Source: Geosiphon pyriformis (Eukaryota > Glomeromycota > Glomeromycetes > Archaeosporales > Geosiphonaceae). From it: DNA of 38,566 nt. The stretch covers positions 1,796 to 40,361 of the forward strand of contig JAAOMT010000048.1 in the NCBI GenBank assembly GCA_016748015.1. The letters are read 5' to 3'. Numbering within the stretch: the first letter of the stretch is position 1; the number at the start of each line of letters is the position of its first letter. A model generated the notes under the pieces. It was not told the DNA's origin. It saw only the letters and a program-made list of their open reading frames with translations, and ran no database searches. Below are positions 14,345 through 32,520 of this stretch, piece after piece. The position numbers were made by a program, and so were the translations under genes.

Positions 14345-14872
14345 GTACCCGAGAAGTTACTGAAAAAAATCGTTTCTTTCATAAAATATTAATTATAAAA
14401 CTGGTAAAGAGTTATTTGTTCACAAATTTTACTTTTATTGCGTGTGTAACTTGTTCACAGATAATTTGAAAACGCGCAGTTGAAACAAATACACAAAATT
14501 TTCGTAAACTTTTAAAAAAGAGGAGAGTTTTATGTAATCCAACTACCTTTACAAGATCTAATAGCAAAGATCTGGTCTTTTTAAATAAAAGTTCTTACCA
14601 ACTGTGTCAGATGAACTAACCCATTCTATCACTAATGCCAATAGTATCTGGACACATATAGTCAATCTTGAGACAGGGTGTCTTTGAAGAACCTCTAAAA
14701 TCATGACCATTTTGATATTGGATTAATATAATATTTGATAATATTTGAGTTGCCTATTGATTGGTTTCCAAGACTATATGCCAAAATTTGCAAAATATAA
14801 GATTTTAAGTAAAGAAAAAAGCAAAAATACAAAGACTTTGAAATTTCTCTTGAAAATTATGGTTTAAAGGTA

Positions 14873-14900
14873 CAGAGGGTGTCCAAAAGTTTCCGAACAA
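14873..14900 (+). repeat. Left terminal inverted repeat of the Tc1 element
   Basis: These 28 bp are identical to the reverse complement of 16260-16287. They are preceded by TA at 14871-14872. Similarity between the two ends stops within a few bases after the repeat. Confidence 0.95.
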
Positions 14901-15121
14901 ACTTTGGAGTAACATTCCACATGCTTGAATAATTAGAAAAGCACGAGTTTATTACTAAATTAAGTTAGTTAATTATTTAATTACGCGTTTTTTATTTTTT
15001 AAACACGCGTGTATAATGTTTTTTCGCAACACGCATAATCGATTTTATTCATACTCGTTTTTTTATAAAAATGAAATGTAACGTGCATATAAAATTTTTT
15101 CGTCATTTTTATTAAAACAAA

Positions 15122-16159
15122 ATGGGAGCAAAAAAAGATTTAACGATTGCTCAGTGTAATACTATATGCTTATTACAACAGCATGGCAAGAAATATCGTG
15201 ATATTGCCAACATAGTCAATTGCAGCTTGACAACAGTTTCGGATACAATAAAACGATTTAAAGAAACTGGTTCAATTGATTCAAGACCTCGTTCAGGACG
15301 TCCACGTTTATTTACTCACCAAAAATATCGCCGACTTAAACGTTTAGTAACACTTAATGGAAAAAATCGTCGTTTATGTATTGCAAATATACGAACTCTT
15401 TGGAAACGAAAAACAAAGCAAACTATTTCTCTTAGAACTCTTCGGCGTGCTCTTAAATCGGTTGGATTACGAAATCGTTATGCAAGAAGGAAACCTTTAA
15501 TCTCACCAGCAAATATAGCAGCACGTCTTGCTTGGTTTATTAAACATCAAAATTGGACAAATCAAAAATGGGCAAGAGTATTATGGAGTGACGAATCAAC
15601 TTTCTCTCAATTTCAACACAATCGGTCTAGTAAAGTATGGCGTGAACCATCTGAAGAATGGCAATTGTCTTGTGTATCAGCAACAGTCAAACATAGTACA
15701 AGTCGAATGTATTGGGCTTGTTTTTCACGACAAAACATTGGACCAATTGTACCATTATATCAAACGGTAAATGGTACTAGACATGTTGAAATTCTTAACC
15801 ATTATGCCTTACCAACTTTACACCGCATGTTTCCTAAAAACAATGGATGGTTTCAAGAAGATAATGCTACCCCTCATCGATCAAAAACTGCCAAAGAATT
15901 TCATAGCAAAAACAAGTTACGTATTCTTTCTTGGCCTCCTCAAAGTCCAGATCTCAATCCAATTGAAAATTTATGGGCTATAGTAAAATGTAATATTCGT
16001 AAAAAAGAAAAACCGCCAATTACTCTTAAAAAACTTGAAAAGTGTGTTAAAGAAGCTTGGAAAGCAATTCCTAAATCAACGATTATAAAATTAGTTGATA
16101 GTATGCCTCGACGTATTCAAGCAGTAATTATAGCACAAGGAGGACCAACAAAGTATTAA
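15122..16159 (+). CDS. Tc1-type transposase, DD34E, intact
   Basis: This single exon of 345 aa catalyses cut-and-paste transposition by binding the inverted repeats. The N-terminus has two helix-turn-helix segments: LTIAQCNTICLLQQHGKKY to about residue 55, and a second near TISLRTLRRALKSVGL. A GRPR-type linker (SRPRSGRPRLF) lies between them. The DDE domain shows Asp157 (LWSDESTF), Asp247 (FQEDNATPH) and Glu282 (SPDLNPIENLW). Exactly 34 residues separate the last two, which is the Tc1 spacing. Length matches typical Tc1 transposases (about 340 aa). All three catalytic residues are present and there is no stop, so activity is plausible. The ATG used lies directly after an AT-rich leader; no better start lies upstream. 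Confidence 0.95.
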   Translation: MGAKKDLTIAQCNTICLLQQHGKKYRDIANIVNCSLTTVSDTIKRFKETGSIDSRPRSGRPRLFTHQKYRRLKRLVTLNGKNRRLCIANIRTLWKRKTKQTISLRTLRRALKSVGLRNRYARRKPLISPANIAARLAWFIKHQNWTNQKWARVLWSDESTFSQFQHNRSSKVWREPSEEWQLSCVSATVKHSTSRMYWACFSRQNIGPIVPLYQTVNGTRHVEILNHYALPTLHRMFPKNNGWFQEDNATPHRSKTAKEFHSKNKLRILSWPPQSPDLNPIENLWAIVKCNIRKKEKPPITLKKLEKCVKEAWKAIPKSTIIKLVDSMPRRIQAVIIAQGGPTKY

Positions 16160-16259
16160 AAGCTTAATAGAAAATTTAGAAAATTACTATAAAATTATAA
16201 ATATGTTGTTTATTTTGTTTCATTTTATAAAAAAATAAATATTATTGTTAAATAAAATC

Positions 16260-16287
16260 TTGTTCGGAAACTTTTGGACACCCTCTG
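16260..16287 (-). repeat. Right terminal inverted repeat of the Tc1 element
   Basis: This is the perfect reverse complement of the left repeat at 14873-14900. It is followed by TA at 16288-16289, completing the target-site duplication. Confidence 0.95.
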
Positions 16288-16289
16288 TA

Positions 16290-23213: not shown

Positions 23214-24092
23214 TCAAAGTTCAATGTAAATGTAATGATTAAAATTGGATAATCTGTCGGGATAGGCTTCTAATTTCTCGAAATCTCCCAAGTGTTCCAA
23301 TAATTCTTTTTTAATATGTCTTTCATATATATAATTTTCACAATTTCCTTTACCCTCTGCAGCAAATTCCGAAAAAGTTTTCCACAATTGGGAAGGCCTG
23401 ATATCCACATTTTTTTGGATCTTCTCAATCAGTTCCATAACCCTCCTTTTAGACGCCTTTCCGTGTTGGTGTATATCCCCATGCCAGCATGTAGCATGGC
23501 AAGATCTTGGGATGTGGCATAAAGAACTCTTGGTCACATTTCGAATTGCCTCGATAAAGTCGAGATAATAATTTTGTAGCTTGTCTTTGGTTTTCAAGGA
23601 AATTTGATAAAACAAGTGTCTCGTTCTGTATTCAAAAAAATCATCAATAATAATTTTTGATGAATCTTTATATGCTTTTGGGAATTGGTACTTTTCTGCC
23701 AAAAAAAGGGTTTCAAGGGGGTTTTCATAGACAGAACTTTCGAGAAATTCACAGCAAATTTTCGTGAGACTGTTCAACTCATACTTATCCGATAAAGGAA
23801 GCAGGTACAGGACGTTTTCCCATTGAATCCTTAGGAAAGAGGCTGGGTAAATAAAGGTTAACAGATCCTCAATATAATTGGGTGCTTCATACAATGTGAC
23901 AGCCTCAAGAGAACGTTCATGATTTTCTATACTGTTACAGCTCTGAAACATAGCCTTGAAGACGGGAGAAGCTAATTCCATGATTTTTTTATGAACTTTA
24001 AAAACGGCTAGCGATTCATTGATATTGATTAAAAGATCACCATCTTCGTAAAAGTGGGTCCCCTGATCAATTTTATTTTCTCCAGCTGTCAT
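23214..24092 (-). CDS. BTB-domain protein, intact single-exon gene
   Basis: This uninterrupted frame of 292 aa has a BTB/POZ fold at about residues 15-120: FYEDGDLLINI, VFKVHKKIMELASPVFKAMF, VTLYEAPNYIEDLLTFIYP, then an alpha-helical stretch to about residue 150. The rest has no Kelch, MATH or zinc-finger repeats. It ends with a conserved-looking segment shared with the nearby pseudogene (IRPSQL, LGDFEKLEAY, HYIYIEL). BTB domains dimerise and often recruit Cullin 3. The partner or substrate cannot be read from this sequence. The start ATG is well placed before the BTB, with a TATA-like motif 43-48 bp upstream. It probably belongs to a lineage-expanded family, since a broken copy lies 4 kb away in opposite orientation. 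Confidence 0.85.
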   Translation of the reverse strand: MTAGENKIDQGTHFYEDGDLLININESLAVFKVHKKIMELASPVFKAMFQSCNSIENHERSLEAVTLYEAPNYIEDLLTFIYPASFLRIQWENVLYLLPLSDKYELNSLTKICCEFLESSVYENPLETLFLAEKYQFPKAYKDSSKIIIDDFFEYRTRHLFYQISLKTKDKLQNYYLDFIEAIRNVTKSSLCHIPRSCHATCWHGDIHQHGKASKRRVMELIEKIQKNVDIRPSQLWKTFSEFAAEGKGNCENYIYERHIKKELLEHLGDFEKLEAYPDRLSNFNHYIYIEL

Positions 24093-24134
24093 TTCTATAA
24101 GGTTTTTGTCGTTAAGAGTTAATCGAGTTCAAAG

Positions 24135-24639: not shown

Positions 24640-25091
24640 TATGCTTCTATTATGTTACCCCTTAACCTTTAAAACATCCGCTATTCTATTGGGAATGAAT
24701 TCAATTAGTATTCGTCCAAACTTCCATTTCAATATTATTCCAAATGCATTGAATTTTTTCCGACAGTTTTTCCTTGGTATGCACTTGCTCAGGTAGATGG
24801 CGAAGACGTCGATCAAGCTTATTCCACAAGTGTTCAATGGGATTTAAGTCTGGAGATTATGGGGGCCAAACAAGAACATTAATATTATTCTTCTCAACCA
24901 CTTCTTGGTAAGTTTTAGGGTCATTATCCTGTTGGAAAATAATACCTTGTGTATCCAAACCAAATTGGTTTAAGACTCCAATTAAATCATCTATAAGTAT
25001 TTTTCTATGCCCTTCACCGTTCAAATTTCATTCAATATGACAAAGATTGCCAAGGGTGTGTATTGTAAAACAACAATACCACCCCCCACCA
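24640..25091 (-). pseudogene. Decayed Tc1-like transposase
   Basis: The minus strand reads GGGW, FTIHTLGNLCHIE, GIIFQQDNDPKTYQEVVEK, then LVWPP-stop-SPDLNPIEHLW and KLDRRLRHLPEQVHTKEKL, a typical Tc1 catalytic half. Internal stops interrupt the frame, including a TAA exactly where Tc1 proteins have Gln in WPPQSPDLNP. The second catalytic Asp (QQDNDP) and Glu (NPIEH) positions are still readable. The N-terminal DNA-binding region is missing, and the sequence runs into the AT-rich block at about 25.1 kb. It is a different subfamily from the intact element at 14873-16287. Confidence 0.8.
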
Positions 25092-25129
25092 AATTTACTG
25101 TTGATTGTACAACACTAACATTAATATTA

Positions 25130-28100
25130 TTGTCGATTTGATTTTATTTAATTTTGAATTTCTACTGCTGTTGAACATTCTTGGGTAGAAATAGTAATCA
25201 AGTTAATAACTAAGTTAATAAATCATACTAACAATTTATTTAAAAAATAAGATAGTTAATATATATAACTAAATATAATTAGATAATTAATATAACTAAA
25301 AATTAAAAGATTTAATTATAACATTATTTTTTTCCAAAAAAAGTATAAAAAGCATTTTGTATATTTTAAATAAAAAAATATTTTTTTATACTAAACAAAA
25401 ATATATCTGTTTTAAAACTACAATAATTCTGCTTATATTTATTTTGGTATTTTATTAATTAATATTATAAATATTATAATAATTAATAACTAATTAAGTC
25501 TTTTGTAATATTTTTAATTTATGTATTATAAACAAATTAATTATTAAATACTATTTTATATTAGTCTTATAAGATATAAGATCTATTGTTTAATATTTTG
25601 TCAATTATAAATAGTTTTTTCTATTAACTTGAAAATTTATTACTAAAAATATTGTTTTATTTAATTAATTTTCAAGAATTATGTTACTAATTTATAGAAA
25701 AAGTGTTTTATATATTTTTATTTTTTATAAGCAATTATTTGTATTTTTATTAAAAAATCTAAAATTATTTAAAGTTTTTATTGTAATATGTTTTTGTAAT
25801 TAAGTTTTATTATTTCTTTAAAAAGTACTGTCTTAATATTAATTTTAATAAGTAATATTGTCATATATTTATAAATTAAATAAAAAATTTTATAGTCAAT
25901 TATATTATAATTGATTATTAAATAAGCAAAAATATTAAAGACAAAAATTTGTCTTATAAATTGGTTTTTTGCTGGTTTTTATTAAGATTTTACAAAGTAT
26001 TTGATTAAAATATTTTACTAATTTATTTATTTAAAGATAATAAGAAAAAAAAAATTTGTAATATACTTTGAATTTTTTAAAAGATTTTTTTATTTAAAAG
26101 TAATTTTAAAATATTTAAAACAGTATATAATTTCTTATATATAAAGTTATTAATTAAAATAATCGTTTAATTTTATTTTATGAAGTAATTTGTTGTTATA
26201 ATAATAAATTTGTTTAATTATATTAATTTTAATATTGTTAAAAAGTTAATCAACAAATATTAAATAAATATTTTCTTTTTAATTGAGTTTTTTTGTTAGT
26301 AAATATTAAAGATTTAAATATATTTTGTTATCTTCTTTCTTAAAATTACCTAATAAATTTTATTAATATTTTCTAAATTATTTTTGTTTTTTTAAATTAT
26401 TTTGTCAATAAGTCTGTTTGTATATTTTATATCATAATTTCTTTTTTCCAAATTATAATTTTTTGGTTTTTTTAATACAATTGGTTTTGGTAAATTAAAT
26501 AAATTTGAATGTTTTTACAAATATTCTCTTTGTTATTAATTATAATTTAATGAATATTGTTTTTTATCTAAAAATTTAGTAAATATTAAATAATTTTTCA
26601 AGTTTATTATTATGTTTAATATTAAACAAAATATTAATAAAGTTTTTGCTAAAAAATTTTATTATAAAATTATTAATAATAATAAAATATTTGTATTTAA
26701 ATTTTTTTTTTAATATTTAATTTTGTAATTGTATTTGTCTAATTAAAAAATTCAGTAAATGATTTATTTATGTTTTAATTTTATTTTATTATATAATTAA
26801 ATTAAAACTTAATATAAATTTTTAAGAAATATTAAATTTAATAATTAATTATTTAATAATAATATAATTTTGTTTAATAAAGAATATTGTTTTGTTTATA
26901 TAAACAATAACATATTTTTTTGTTATTGTTTAATTAAAATAGAATAATATTTAATTAATATTTTAATGTATTAATATAAAAAATAAAAATTTATCTAAAT
27001 TAAATTGTTTTAAGATAAGTTTAAAAATTCAAAATATTTTTTAAACCAAGATATATTTAAAGAAAACTTAAAAAATACATTTTTTGTAGTTTTAATTAAA
27101 ACAATAAAGTAAGTATTTATTAAAAAAAAAATTTATTTATATAGTTTAAAAATTATTAACATTCAAAATTAGAAAACCAATTTACTTAACAAATATATAT
27201 TTAACAAATTTAATAAACTTAAAACAAATTTATTATAATATTAAACAAATTAACAGCTTTATTATTTAGAAAATTTTTAATTACAGCTAACGATTTTTAA
27301 TATTTTATCTTTTTTATTATTTTAAAAAATACTGTATTATTTATATAGTTTAATAAGATATATTGATAATATTATAACTTAAATTTTATTTAAGATTATT
27401 TAATTTTTAGTTTATTTTTTTATAATCTTATTAATCTTAGAATTAATTTTATTAACTTTCAAAATTAATTTATTATTTATAATTAAATAATCCACAACAA
27501 ATTTTTAAAACAGATATTTTAGATTACTTTTATTACAAGTAAAATTTTTTATATATTTAGTAATAATTAATTTAATTTTGAATTTTTTAATCATCTGTAA
27601 TTTATATAGCTTAAATATTTAATAAACTTTTTTAATTTTTAATTTTTAATTTATTATATTTTAAATATTTAAAGCTTTTAAATTATTTGGAAAAAACTAT
27701 ATACATAAAAGTTTTATGTATTTATTACTAAATTTAAATTTAAATTTTTTAATAATTTTTAATACAAAAGCTTTAATCTATAAAATTTAAAAAAAAATTT
27801 GTTTTTTTTAGTTTATTAAACTTATTTACTGTATTAATTGTTTTTAACTAAGAAAAATTCTTGATTTTTTCTATTTAAAATCTTTAATTTTGTATTTTTA
27901 ATAGTTTTAATTTGTTTAATTTTATAAAATACTGAATAAAATATTTAATAAACTATTTAAACTAATTAATATAAAAACAAATTTGTAATTAGTATTAAAA
28001 GACTTTTTATATTTTGTATTTTTTACTTAATTATAATATTAATTAATAAATCTAAATTTAAACATTTATTATTTAAAATCACAAATAAATTATTATTAAT

Positions 28101-30404
28101 TGTCTTAATAATTATAGTATTAATATTAACAGTTTGTTTTTATTTAACTATAAAAAATATATTTATATAAAAATCTAAAACAATAACCAAAAATTTATTT
28201 TAAAAAAACAAATAAATAAACAAAACCAATTTAATATATTAAAATTTTTGCAAATATGCTTTGTTAAATTATTGTTTAAAATAATTAAAATTTAAGCCAA
28301 AAATAAAAACTTTAATTTTGTTAAATTTATTTATTATTTAAAATCAAATTTGATTTTTTAATTGTATTTTAATAACAATAAAAATCAAATTATTTATATT
28401 TTTATGTTATTTATCATATTTTTTTGCTTAGTAAAATTGTTTATATTATATATTACATATAATTATTTTTTAAATTAAGTTGATTATTAAAACAGTAATT
28501 TGTTAAATCTTAAAAACAAAAATTGTTTATTTTTATTATTAAGTTTATTATTATATTTATAAATTTCTTAATATTTAATTTTTTTTTAAATCAAATAATT
28601 TTTGGTTATTAATAGTCTTATTATTAATAAATATATACAAACTTTTTTTATTGTTAAATTATTTATTTAATTTTGCTTAAAAAAGATTTTTAATAACTTA
28701 TATTTAAAACAAAACTAAAAAAATATTAATATAAATATATTTAATTTCTTTGTCAACTTATTTATATATTTTATAAAATTAATAAAATTGTGTTTTAGAC
28801 TAACAATTATAATTTTAATATTCTTAATAAACAAAAAAAATAAATTCTTATAAAAAAACCAATGATAAAAAAGATTCAAAAAATAATTAAAAAACAAACT
28901 TTTAATAATTAATATTCATTAAAAAAACAGAACGAAAAATAAAAGCTTGTTTTTTTTGATATATATATGTATTAATTATTGTTTAATAATATTAAAAATA
29001 TTTTTTTATATTTAACTAAAAACTTTTTTATTAGAATTATATTTATTAATAATATGTTTAACTTATTTATACTTGACTTAAAAAAATATTATTAAATTAC
29101 TCCAGCACAATATTGTTTTTTTTATAAACAAAAATTATATAAAAAGCATTTTTTTAAGACTTTTTAATTTTAAAATACATAATTATATATTTAATATAAT
29201 TATAAAATACAAAGTTCTAATTAATTATATTTATTTTTATAATATAAAATTAAAAGATTAAAAGATTATAAATTATTATTTTTATTAATAAAATATGAAA
29301 AAATGTTTAATACAGATTTCTTAATATTAATTTTAATTTATTAATATTAATTTTTTTTATATATATTAAATTTTTTTTATTTAAATAAATTTATTTAGAT
29401 ACTATTAACTAAATAATATTATTATTGGCAAATTTTATTATAGTTTTTTATTATAAATTAATAAGTTATACTTTAATTTACATTATTTTACCAAATTTAA
29501 AAAAAAATTAATTCTAAAAAAATTAATTAAGATTTTTTTAATAATTATTTTTATATTTTAACTAAATATAATTTAGTTAATAATTAAAATATAAAATATT
29601 ATTATTTTTAACTATTATACTTATTTATTTGGTAATATTATTTGTATTTAATTTAATTTTAAAAGTTTAAAGCTTTTTAAAATCATTATTTGATTAAATA
29701 GTTATTTATTAATTTTATTATTAAAAATATTTATATTATATTTTTAAGTTTATATATCTTTTTGAATTTATTATATTTTTTATATATTTTATATATTTTA
29801 TTTTTAAAAACAATTTTTTGAATTTTAATACACTTTTTATTTATTTAAAAAAATATTAATTAATTAACCAAAAAAACCAAAATACTAATAAACTTAATAA
29901 TAAATTTAATTAGTAAACTTAATATAACCAATTTAAATTTTAAAAAACCAATTAAAAACTAACAAAAAATTAACAACATTAATAATAGCAAAAATAAGCA
30001 AAAATATAATAATAAAAAAAACCAAAAAACAAATATTTTAATATAAAACTTAATATTAATAAAACAAGATTCAAAATTTTAAACCAATTACAAATTTAAA
30101 TAAAAACTTAAAAAAAAAATAAGAACATCTTATAATTTAAAGCCAAATAATTAAAACTTTAATATTTAAAACAATATTAATAGTTAAAATTTTTTATTAA
30201 ATATAATATTTTTTTAAAATATCTATTTTAATAATTATAGTTTCAAATTTTTTTAAAAACAAAAAATAAATTAAAAAAACAAAAAATAAAACAAATATAA
30301 TTATAAACCTAAAAAACCAATTTGTTAATTTTAAAAACAATATAATTAAAAAATTAATTAATTTAATCTTAAATAATTTTATTTTATTTTATTGTAAGTT
30401 TAAC
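25130..30404. other. AT-rich gene-less block 3, left part
   Basis: Over 5 kb of nearly pure A+T. By hand count, 29881-30360 holds 39 C and 9 G (10% GC) with C strongly favoured on the plus strand, while 25741-26220 holds more G than C. No frame in it looks coding; the 28715-28897 frame is poly-Phe/Ile/Asn. The block starts right after the decayed Tc1 copy and ends at the LINE remnant. Confidence 0.8.
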
Positions 30405-31797
30405 AAATAAAGTCTAACTACTATTTAGTATATAGAACCAAACTAAATGGAACTAACTAAATACAGCTCATGTATTTATTACATATGGCCAGCCACTTGG
30501 GTCAAATAAAACAACACTATATGTCTATATTAACAAATGTATTACCACCTAAACCAGAAAAAAAATAACACAACTTGTACTTACTAAATCCAACAGCAAA
30601 AAATTCTATAACTTCAAATATACAGACAACTTCAACCAACAATATAGAAACTAAACAGTAAAACAAGCCCAAAATCACATCATTATTTCCTACCAAGCCA
30701 GTCTTTTTTATATTTACTCTATGTTTGGCTTTGACAACTCATATCTTGGTATGGTACAATTCCACCAAAAATCTACTGAATTTTACAAGGGCAAGAGCAG
30801 CTTTTTTTTTCCCTTCAAAAACCAAAACAGTCTTGGCATACCAATTTCTTAACACAAAGTCTTTACAAATAGCTGTATACAAGTTCATATTTAAAAAGCA
30901 CATAGAAAATGACTGCAAAATTGCAAAAACAAATGAGCATAAAATACCAGACAATAATGTCTATTTACTGATAGCCTCAGCTAAAATGTTTCCACAAAGA
31001 CCAGATTTATCAGAACAAGTAAAACTATGATTAGACAATTCCATATTGTCACACAATAAGCACAACACCTTAGGATAACACCTGTTATACAATCTTTTTC
31101 TAACTGTTACTAGTAGTCATCTATAAACAGTTTTTATCAAATATGTATGCAAATTGGCCGACTTTCTACCAGTAAACTTAGAAAGCATGTGTAAATTAGG
31201 ATGCCAAACCTCTGTAGTAGTTTTTTACTCAATATCTTTAATCATAATACCTGGAATTATGTTATAACCAGGACCAGCTTCTCAATAAGCATAGCAAATT
31301 GATCAGTACAAATTACAAACAAAGTAATAAGCATTACCAAACACAACAGTTTTTTCAGCAATCAAATATCTCTTCTGAATCCTAGCCAGCAAAGAGAAGA
31401 GTAAAAACATGGTTTTACTAACCAATGTATTAGCCTTAATATTGCCAAGTATACCAAAATGTCTTTTAATTTTCACTCACTTAATAAAAATGTCTTTATC
31501 CTTAAGAAGATTGACTATCTGCAATCTTTTGATTTAACATTAGTTATGGAAGTCGAGCACAGTAAAAGAAGCCTCAGATGTATAGACATTAATTGCAAAT
31601 TGGCTATCTAAGTACAGAACTACAGCACATGAAAACAGAACACATTCCAAAGCCAAAGCAATAGCCTGTAATTCAGTTAAAGTAGAAGACCTAAGTCCAG
31701 CTACCCTAATCTCAATATCTGTATCTACAGCTGGAAAGTAAGCAGTTGTCATATCTGCCACCTTATTGGAGCCAGCACCTTTTAAGAAACCATAAAT
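30405..31797 (-). pseudogene. LINE-like retroelement remnant: RNase H and downstream C-terminal region
   Basis: From 31797 down to a stop at 30517-30519 the minus strand reads as one frame with nine internal stops and no net frameshift. It opens with an RNase H domain (TTAYFPAVDTDIEIRV, TLTELQAIALALECV, VVLYLDSQFAINVY), retaining the Glu and second Asp motifs. A long C-terminal part follows (AEVWHP-like TEVWHPNLHMLSKF, RCYPKVLCLLCDNMELSNHS, CKDFVLRNWYAKTVLVFEGK). The stops fall at TGG-, CGA- or CAG-like positions, as expected from C-to-T or G-to-A changes. Reverse transcriptase and endonuclease are absent; the left boundary passes abruptly to AT-rich DNA. The family resembles, from memory, elements common in Rhizophagus and Gigaspora genomes. 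The last 110 bp are 3' UTR shared with 32366-32520. Confidence 0.8.
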
Positions 31798-32365
31798 AAT
31801 TTATAAAAAACAAATAATTTTTTTTAAATTAATAAAAAAAATTCTATTATTATTTTTTTAAAATTTTAAAATAAATAATAATATATTACCAAATATTAAC
31901 AAATTTTAATGTAATTTAAAAAATCTTATCAAAAATATTAAGAACTGTTTTAATATTAATAATAAAACCATTCTTAAACATATTATATAAAGCAATAACA
32001 ATAAAAAAATATAAACTTAAAAATTATTAAAGATTTAACAATTTTAAAAATAAAAAAAACAGATAAAAATAGCAAATTTAATTTAAAATACAGTATTTAA
32101 AAAAACTTAAAAAACAAATTTAATATAAAACAACTTTATATTATTTTTAAATATTAATTTAATATTAATAAAATTATGTATAAACTAAAAAATATGTTTA
32201 ATATAAATTAATTTTAACTTAAAAAAACATTAAAAATTAAAATAAAACTACTTACTTAATAAATTTTTAATATTTAATAATTGTTTTTTGCCAAAAATCA
32301 GAAAAAAATAGCTTTAATTTTTATTTAATTAATTTAATTCTTAAAATTTAGTAATTTAATAAGTT
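31798..32365. other. AT-rich stretch between the two LINE pieces
   Basis: Nearly pure A+T with more C than G on the plus strand (27 C and 10 G by hand count over 31861-32280). It may be the further-decayed upstream part of the minus-strand LINE or unrelated AT-rich sequence; I cannot tell. Confidence 0.55.
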
Positions 32366-32520
32366 AAGATTCTGGTGAGTGTGTAATATTGCCTTGATGG
32401 GTCCGAGTGGCTGGTCACATGTAGTAAGTACATGAGCCACATTTAGTTTGAAATATTTTGCTTTATCTCTGTATGCTAGATAGTAGTTAGGCTGCATTCA
32501 TTAATTAATAAAAAAAAAAA
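32366..32520 (+). mobile_element. 5'-truncated LINE 3' end with A-tail
   Basis: Sequence from the very end of the LINE coding region through the 3' UTR, ending in a run of eleven A (32510-32520). It matches the reverse complement of about 30405-30525 along its length (shared blocks gtggctgg, tacatgagc and atagtagttag). Most differences are transitions, with G or C more often kept here. A short 3' fragment with an A-run is the usual product of incomplete target-primed reverse transcription. No flanking target duplication was discerned. Confidence 0.7.

Follow-up and report, generated by a model that had tools for sequence, protein, structure and literature searches.

Probable inactivation of a LINE copy in Geosiphon pyriformis by RIP-like, episodic C:G to T:A hypermutation

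A 38,566-nt stretch of the Geosiphon pyriformis genome (hereafter the window) contains, on its minus strand, a copy of a long interspersed nuclear element (LINE) whose reading frame for RNase H and the C-terminal region is interrupted by nine premature stop codons (Table 1). Judged from sequence comparisons, this copy was probably inactivated by episodic C:G to T:A hypermutation of a kind resembling repeat-induced point mutation (RIP). The changes have a C:G to T:A spectrum, fall evenly on the three codon positions and on both strands, and are found in LINE copies, in a Tc1-type transposon and in a miniature inverted-repeat transposable element (MITE); in the MITE and Tc1 copies, the load of such changes is independent of the number of other changes. 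A preliminary description of this DNA had proposed a RIP-like or methyl-cytosine process rather than neutral decay. Our comparisons support that proposal, and the Tc1 and MITE copies favour the RIP-like episode.

Reading frame and extent of the LINE copy

Read on the minus strand from 31800 to 30520, the best frame has 9 stops in 427 codons; the two remaining frames have 29 and 50. Among 1,000 random first-order sequences, the frame with the fewest stops contained at least 15 (mean 29.0). The nine stops reported in the preliminary description are nine premature stops in the LINE frame, to which the natural TAG at 30519–30517 is added. At these nine sites, relatives carry CAA (one site), TGG (six sites) or mixtures of CGA, CGG, CAG, CAA and TGG (two sites), so all nine stops are explicable by C:G to T:A changes; two of them (TGG to TAA) need two such changes each. 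The relatives' codons agree in nine of nine cases with the earlier suggestion that the stops replaced Trp, Arg or Gln codons through C-to-T or G-to-A changes.

The insertion is longer than the 30517–31797 first described. Its A-rich 3′ end lies near 30385 and, from homology to other copies, its 5′ boundary falls somewhere in 31793–31838. Upstream, most of the 20 best LINE copies continue with a G+C near 0.3, but in the window an AT desert begins at about 31793–31838; the insertion is therefore 5′-truncated. The RNase H assignment was borne out on a related copy, L019 (PF00075, E 1.2e-12). A relative with a 1285-codon open reading frame (ORF) encodes RVT_1 and RNase_H, and an ORF for the endonuclease (Exo_endo_phos) precedes it. 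The family thus combines endonuclease, reverse transcriptase, RNase H, 5′ truncation and an A-rich 3′ end, as expected of a LINE, with the endonuclease, RVT_1 and RNase_H domains seen in the long-ORF relative.

Three side observations concern LINE sequence or its borders. A fragment of about 135 bp at 32366–32500, which aligns with LINE 3′ ends, has a higher G+C than the adjoining 1.4-kb copy and may be too short for the mutation to strike. The segment 29860–30380, adjoining the LINE, is strand-asymmetric (44 C, 9 G, 298 A and 170 T on the plus strand); the idea that it is the LINE 3′ untranslated region was considered and rejected. Elsewhere in the genome, two partial LINE copies stand head to tail within 2.2 kb (L007:801–3011).

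Substitutions in LINE copies

We searched the assembly (124.7 Mb, 406 contigs) for LINE copies at the DNA level; the best 40 of 838 candidates were scored, giving 39 other copies that were read, and in a further candidate search the best 149 of 5190 were scored. The 40 copies of the first search have 4 to 27 best-frame stops each, counting the natural stop in those that reach it; their CpG observed/expected ratios are 0.00–0.19. The eight closest of them are 79–83% identical to the window copy and differ from it by 212–251 substitutions each, with 0, 0, 0, 0, 1, 1, 2 and 3 gap events; the absence of gaps against four of the eight upholds the earlier claim that the frame stays in register with no net frameshift. 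Summed over all pairs of these nine copies, there are 8061 substitutions and 63 gap events, with repeated counting of those held in common.

Changes private to the window copy, scored against a 70% majority of the eight relatives, comprise 73 C:G to T:A, 24 reverse changes and 8 transversions, and are distributed over the codon positions as 32/32/41. Many indels or transversions would have spoken against the process first proposed; gaps are few, and the 8 transversions stand against 73 C:G to T:A changes. The nine copies together give 607/240/48 (C:G to T:A/reverse/transversion) at the same majority. For 15 of the 24 reverse changes in the window copy, 3 or more of 29 outside copies have the same base; these are probably retained ancestral C or G, and the remaining nine have no such explanation. 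When all other copies were required to agree, the strictest setting, the counts became 9/8/5 for the window copy (22 changes) and 117/51/23 for the nine copies; this setting drops mutable sites, and the bias is not shown by it alone.

A younger LINE family gives a cleaner spectrum. Eight long-ORF relatives have 42–47% G+C and CpG observed/expected ratios of 0.25–0.52. With one of them as query, the best 40 of 1125 candidates were scored; these copies are 91–96% alike to the query, and 37 of the 40 are gap-free. Against their 80% majority, C:G to T:A accounts for 1131 of 1299 changes, beside 92 reverse changes and 76 transversions, with per-site rates of 0.057 for C>T, 0.048 for G>A and 0.0025 for T>C. 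By context, C-to-T rates are 0.157 at CpG, 0.055 at CpC, 0.038 at CpT and 0.035 at CpA. The C-to-T changes are even over codon positions (419/375/337) and the other changes are uneven (52/29/87), which suggests that most of the former arose after insertion and that the latter were largely inherited from working elements. The younger family cannot tell a clock from one shared event.

Comparison with a clock in Tc1 and MITE copies

A clock comparison was possible with two DNA transposon families. The window contains an unmutated Tc1-type transposon, which has the DDE transposase and inverted ends of the Tc1/mariner group, and the 612-bp MITE is an internally deleted derivative that keeps both ends. 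Searches with the unmutated Tc1 element (best 40 of 69) and with a mutated copy (all 20 candidates) yielded nine long copies; shorter Tc1 pieces in those matches were left unread. The reference was the majority of the four unmutated long copies. Counts of C-to-T and other changes are 2/6, 5/2, 4/6 and 4/4 in these four, 31/5 and 22/5 in two intermediates, and 86/7, 115/6 and 105/3 in three heavily mutated copies.

The MITE sample (n = 29) consists of 23 copies that were read at full length among 29 near-intact ones, together with L137–L142; three copies are partial (L140, L148 and L153). Twenty-four MITEs carry 0–3 C-to-T changes each (37 in total, beside 17 reverse changes and 48 transversions), and five carry 36, 58, 68, 76 and 80 (318 in total, beside 4 reverse changes and 15 transversions). 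No copy lies between these ranges. The contrast in C-to-T against other changes (37 beside 65, and 318 beside 19) has a Fisher p of 8e-34. Per C/G site, the C-to-T rate is 0.009 in the unmutated and 0.384 in the mutated MITEs, whereas other changes per base are similar, at 0.0046 and 0.0067, respectively, or 0.0041 in the mutated set without L140. The MITE loads point to discrete episodes, not to accumulation with time; the Tc1 family has two intermediates.

Sites mutated in more than one of the five MITEs are shared about as often as the rates of their contexts lead one to expect (z −1.3 to 1.9 over ten pairs), and a change other than C-to-T is common to only one pair (L137 and L140, one change). 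As site sharing follows the prediction and almost no other change is shared, at least four of the five were probably hit independently. The possibility that MITEs were spared by their shortness, raised by a 244-bp comparison of 30 sequences (33/14/27), was rejected, as the full length is about 612 bp and five mutated copies exist. Long ORFs of other transposons, sought in the flanks that were read, gave no seed for a further family.

Several observations weigh against an episodic origin. The two intermediate Tc1 copies were hit mainly at CpG (19 of 31 and 15 of 22 changes), as plain methyl-CpG decay would give. The 21 least-changed young LINE copies carry 19–42 changes with a clock-like variance/mean of 0.91, although these copies were picked for low counts, so that the ratio is biased low and decides nothing. 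Among the mutated MITEs, L140 has more other changes than the rest (9 in 428 bases), perhaps owing to a greater age, and L137 and L140 have a neighbouring repeat in common. Nine of the ten pairs have z values of 0.3 to 1.9, as expected or moderately more, and one has −1.3. The mutated MITEs came from a mutated query (best 40 of 56) and most unmutated ones from the window element (best 40 of 69), so these counts do not give the proportion of the two. Finally, the process spared a gene duplicate about 1.2 kb long.

In one rival view, 5-methylcytosine of silenced transposons would be deaminated steadily, mainly at CpG with dense non-CpG methylation besides and no special mutator. This view has to contend with the roughly 40-fold difference in C-to-T per C/G site between MITEs with equal other changes. 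It also has to account for CpA, CpC and CpT, which are mutated at 0.23–0.62 in four of the five mutated MITEs, and for unmutated MITEs in equally AT-rich, CpG-poor flanks (G+C 0.14–0.27 in the seven of 24 checked, against 0.11–0.22 around the mutated copies). We consider it unlikely, even though mutation is highest at CpG in all sets, CpG has nearly been lost from old LINE copies, DNA methyltransferases are encoded in the genome and the two lightly struck Tc1 copies carry their changes mainly at CpG. An episodic activity is the better fit, since a clock would need a rate about 40-fold higher in some MITEs than in sister copies with a similar number of other changes, and in every dinucleotide context.

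Sequence context and strand

In the mutated MITEs, 318 of 337 changes are C:G to T:A. CpG exceeds CpA in all five; the order in most is CpG first, CpA and CpC next and CpT least, with a 5′ pyrimidine favoured. A 5′ T is likewise favoured in the younger LINEs (TCC 0.088 and TCA 0.083 versus ACA 0.0225). These contexts had raised the suspicion of UV-like damage, which was rejected: tandem CC to TT changes show no excess, with 6 seen where 7.2 were expected.

Both strands are struck about equally, with C>T close to G>A in LINE and Tc1 copies. This equality makes strand-specific cytidine deamination of retroelement RNA or cDNA, as by an APOBEC-like enzyme, highly improbable, as does the mutation of DNA transposons. 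Strand-specific editing had been suspected from the G-poor plus strand, but the eight long-ORF copies already have this skew, with G exceeding C on the sense strand (0.27–0.33). The preference for T before C would suit such an enzyme, and neighbouring changes lie somewhat more often on the same strand: 0.577 versus 0.533 expected in the LINE (p 0.008, uncorrected for shared ancestry), with p values of 0.069, 0.291, 0.017, 0.013 and 0.175 for same-strand runs in five Tc1 copies. Such runs would also fit a processive enzyme, though not strongly. An enzyme that deaminates DNA in the course of replication or repair is conceivable.

Host DNA as a control

The elements struck are the LINE, the Tc1 transposon and the 612-bp MITE; the DNA spared is a duplicated methyltransferase gene segment of about 1.2 kb. 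Its two copies, about 32 kb apart, differ at 75 positions, comprising 31 C:G to T:A changes, 19 reverse changes and 25 transversions (direction: L060 to the truncated L066); the alignment of about 1150 columns has 5 gap openings. On these counts, the spectrum of this non-transposon duplicate appears near-ordinary. G+C at fourfold sites is 0.25–0.49 in eight reading frames taken as host genes and 0.12 in the Tc1 transposase. Because the duplicate is near-ordinary and fourfold sites of host genes keep this G+C, genome-wide mutation pressure is no explanation for the LINE. Least probable of all is ordinary neutral decay under the genome's strong A+T bias. In its favour, C to T is usually the commonest change and intergenic G+C is as low as 8.5–15.6%, but such decay is at odds with the duplicate, with the 37/17/48 changes of the unmutated MITEs and with the fourfold sites.

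Two observations were made elsewhere in the window. The desert at 25001–30000 (8.5–15.6% G+C; CpG observed/expected 0.28 over 25500–30000) may be old, fully mutated transposon DNA. A BTB gene at 23214–24128 has itself as its sole genome match (1 candidate, at the DNA search sensitivity used). As to lineage, two primer sites for arbuscular mycorrhizal 18S rDNA returned nothing, in one case even when up to 2 mismatches were permitted; the LINE and the gene content may resemble those of Glomeromycotina.

Table 1. Positions of the LINE copy, its stop codons and other transposon features in the window
Feature	Position	Strand	Remarks
5′-truncated LINE copy, probably hypermutated	30385..31838	-	Homology to other copies ends near 30385 (A-rich tail) and upstream within 31793–31838
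LINE RNase H and C-terminal reading frame with nine premature stops	30517..31797	-	PF00075 on related copy L019
Premature stop TAA	31540..31542	-	CAA in 8/8 clade copies
Premature stop TAA	31534..31536	-	Relatives: TGG or its C:G to T:A products
Premature stop TGA	31477..31479	-	TGG in outside and long-ORF copies; stops in 7/8 clade copies
Premature stop TGA	31303..31305	-	Relatives: CAA, CAG, TGG or CGA
Premature stop TGA	31282..31284	-	TGG in 6/8 clade copies
Premature stop TAA	31225..31227	-	Relatives: TGG or its products
Premature stop TGA	31117..31119	-	Relatives: CAA, CAG, CGG or TGG; AGG in 7/8 long-ORF copies
Premature stop TAG	30961..30963	-	Relatives: TGG or its products
Premature stop TGA	30739..30741	-	Relatives: TGG or its products
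Natural stop TAG of LINE ORF	30517..30519	-	TAG in 6/8 clade copies (2 gapped) and 7/8 long-ORF relatives
3′-terminal fragment (~135 bp) of related LINE, opposite orientation	32366..32500	+	Aligns with LINE 3′ ends
Unmutated Tc1-type transposon	14871..16289	+	44-nt inverted ends; DDE_3, HTH_Tnp_Tc3_2
Tc1 transposase ORF	15116-16159	+	DDE_3, HTH_Tnp_Tc3_2

DNA methyltransferase genes

A PF00145 search of the genome gave ten exon matches in seven loci. Two genes with BAH regions, on C355 and C327 (loci L064/L150 and L065/L151), both have 9baq/9bap as their best solved match, chains that, judging by their length, we take to be DIM-2; BAH scores above the cut-off in L064 and below it in L065. A locus on C96 has a weak BAH match. 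The genes on C307 and C346 look DNMT2-like. C318 carries a compact gene of the DNMT1 superfamily (C318:788280, locus L060), in which the single 151-residue exon scanned with Pfam matched PF00145 only, with no BAH. This compact gene (L060:1929–3266) has a truncated inverted duplicate, L066, about 32 kb off on the same contig.

The preliminary description had suggested looking for methyltransferases of the RID/Masc type. Methyltransferase genes are present, but the motif VI of RID/Masc1, marked by an EQT or EET triad (PMC6709928), was not seen in those that could be read: the six of seven PF00145 loci readable at motif VI all have ENV, including the translated exon of the compact enzyme, and the seventh is unreadable there. 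The arbuscular mycorrhizal clade is described, with reference to other work, as having DNMT1, DNMT2, DNMT5, DIM-2 and RID (PMC8298701).

Discussion

We propose that a host activity would act on single transposon copies, once or in a few bursts, and convert many of their C:G pairs to T:A; both strands and all dinucleotide contexts would be affected, CpG most of all. The cause would be enzymatic, acting through cytosine methylation and then deamination, and would probably involve a DNMT1-superfamily enzyme of this genome, either the compact enzyme or the pair closest to 9baq/9bap. The copies might be recognised by their repetition or by silencing marks.

Such a process resembles RIP in Neurospora and other Ascomycota in that it yields C:G to T:A almost only, on both strands and in repeated DNA, and in that some copies are heavily struck while their substitution clock is not raised. 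It differs from Neurospora RIP in that CpG is struck most and CpA is not preferred, in that the six readable methyltransferases lack EQT/EET in motif VI, and in that the gene duplicate was spared.

In Microbotryum and other Basidiomycota, transposons reportedly have a C-to-T bias of CpG or TpCpG type without a RID gene (PMC4352252); here, CpA, CpC and CpT are also heavily struck, the copies within a family were set against a clock, and the enzyme set is different, with two genes closest to 9baq/9bap besides the DNMT1-like one. In Zymoseptoria tritici, transposon C-to-T change is linked to the Dim2 methyltransferase and does not need sex, but there the process is mitotic with more than 98% of C-to-T changes at CpA (PMC8016269), in contrast to the CpG preference described here. 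In Entomophthorales, RIP has been suggested outside Dikarya from window composition indices, with the authors' own caveats (PMC11105155), whereas we used per-copy spectra set against other changes.

Elsewhere in print, RIP is restricted to Dikarya or to Ascomycota. In a k-mer screen of 1,239 genomes, RIP-like signatures enriched in repeats came from ascomycetes only (PMC12543289); RIP is said to be known from Dikarya alone, apart from a tentative case in Entomophthorales (PMC11105155), not to occur in chytrids (PMC6572847) and not to have been detected in Gigaspora margarita or Mucoromycotina (PMC8647823). Transposon C-to-T bias as such is called widespread, with CpG signatures in basidiomycetes (PMC4352252). 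Among the titles of the literature matches listed, none reports such a process in arbuscular mycorrhizal fungi.

We therefore put forward, tentatively and with appreciable doubt, that Geosiphon may possess a RIP-like system outside Dikarya: one in a fungus of arbuscular mycorrhizal type, without a canonical RID, with its own CpG and pyrimidine-C rule, and acting in discrete episodes on LINEs, DNA transposons and MITEs, whose old targets could make up much of the deserts of 8–15% G+C. A process that favours CpG and YpC would score weakly in CpA-based indices, and setting the C-to-T load of each copy against its other changes offers a simple test independent of them. Should the host belong to the supposedly asexual mycorrhizal fungi, episodes of hypermutation would bear on the question of a hidden sexual or parasexual stage.
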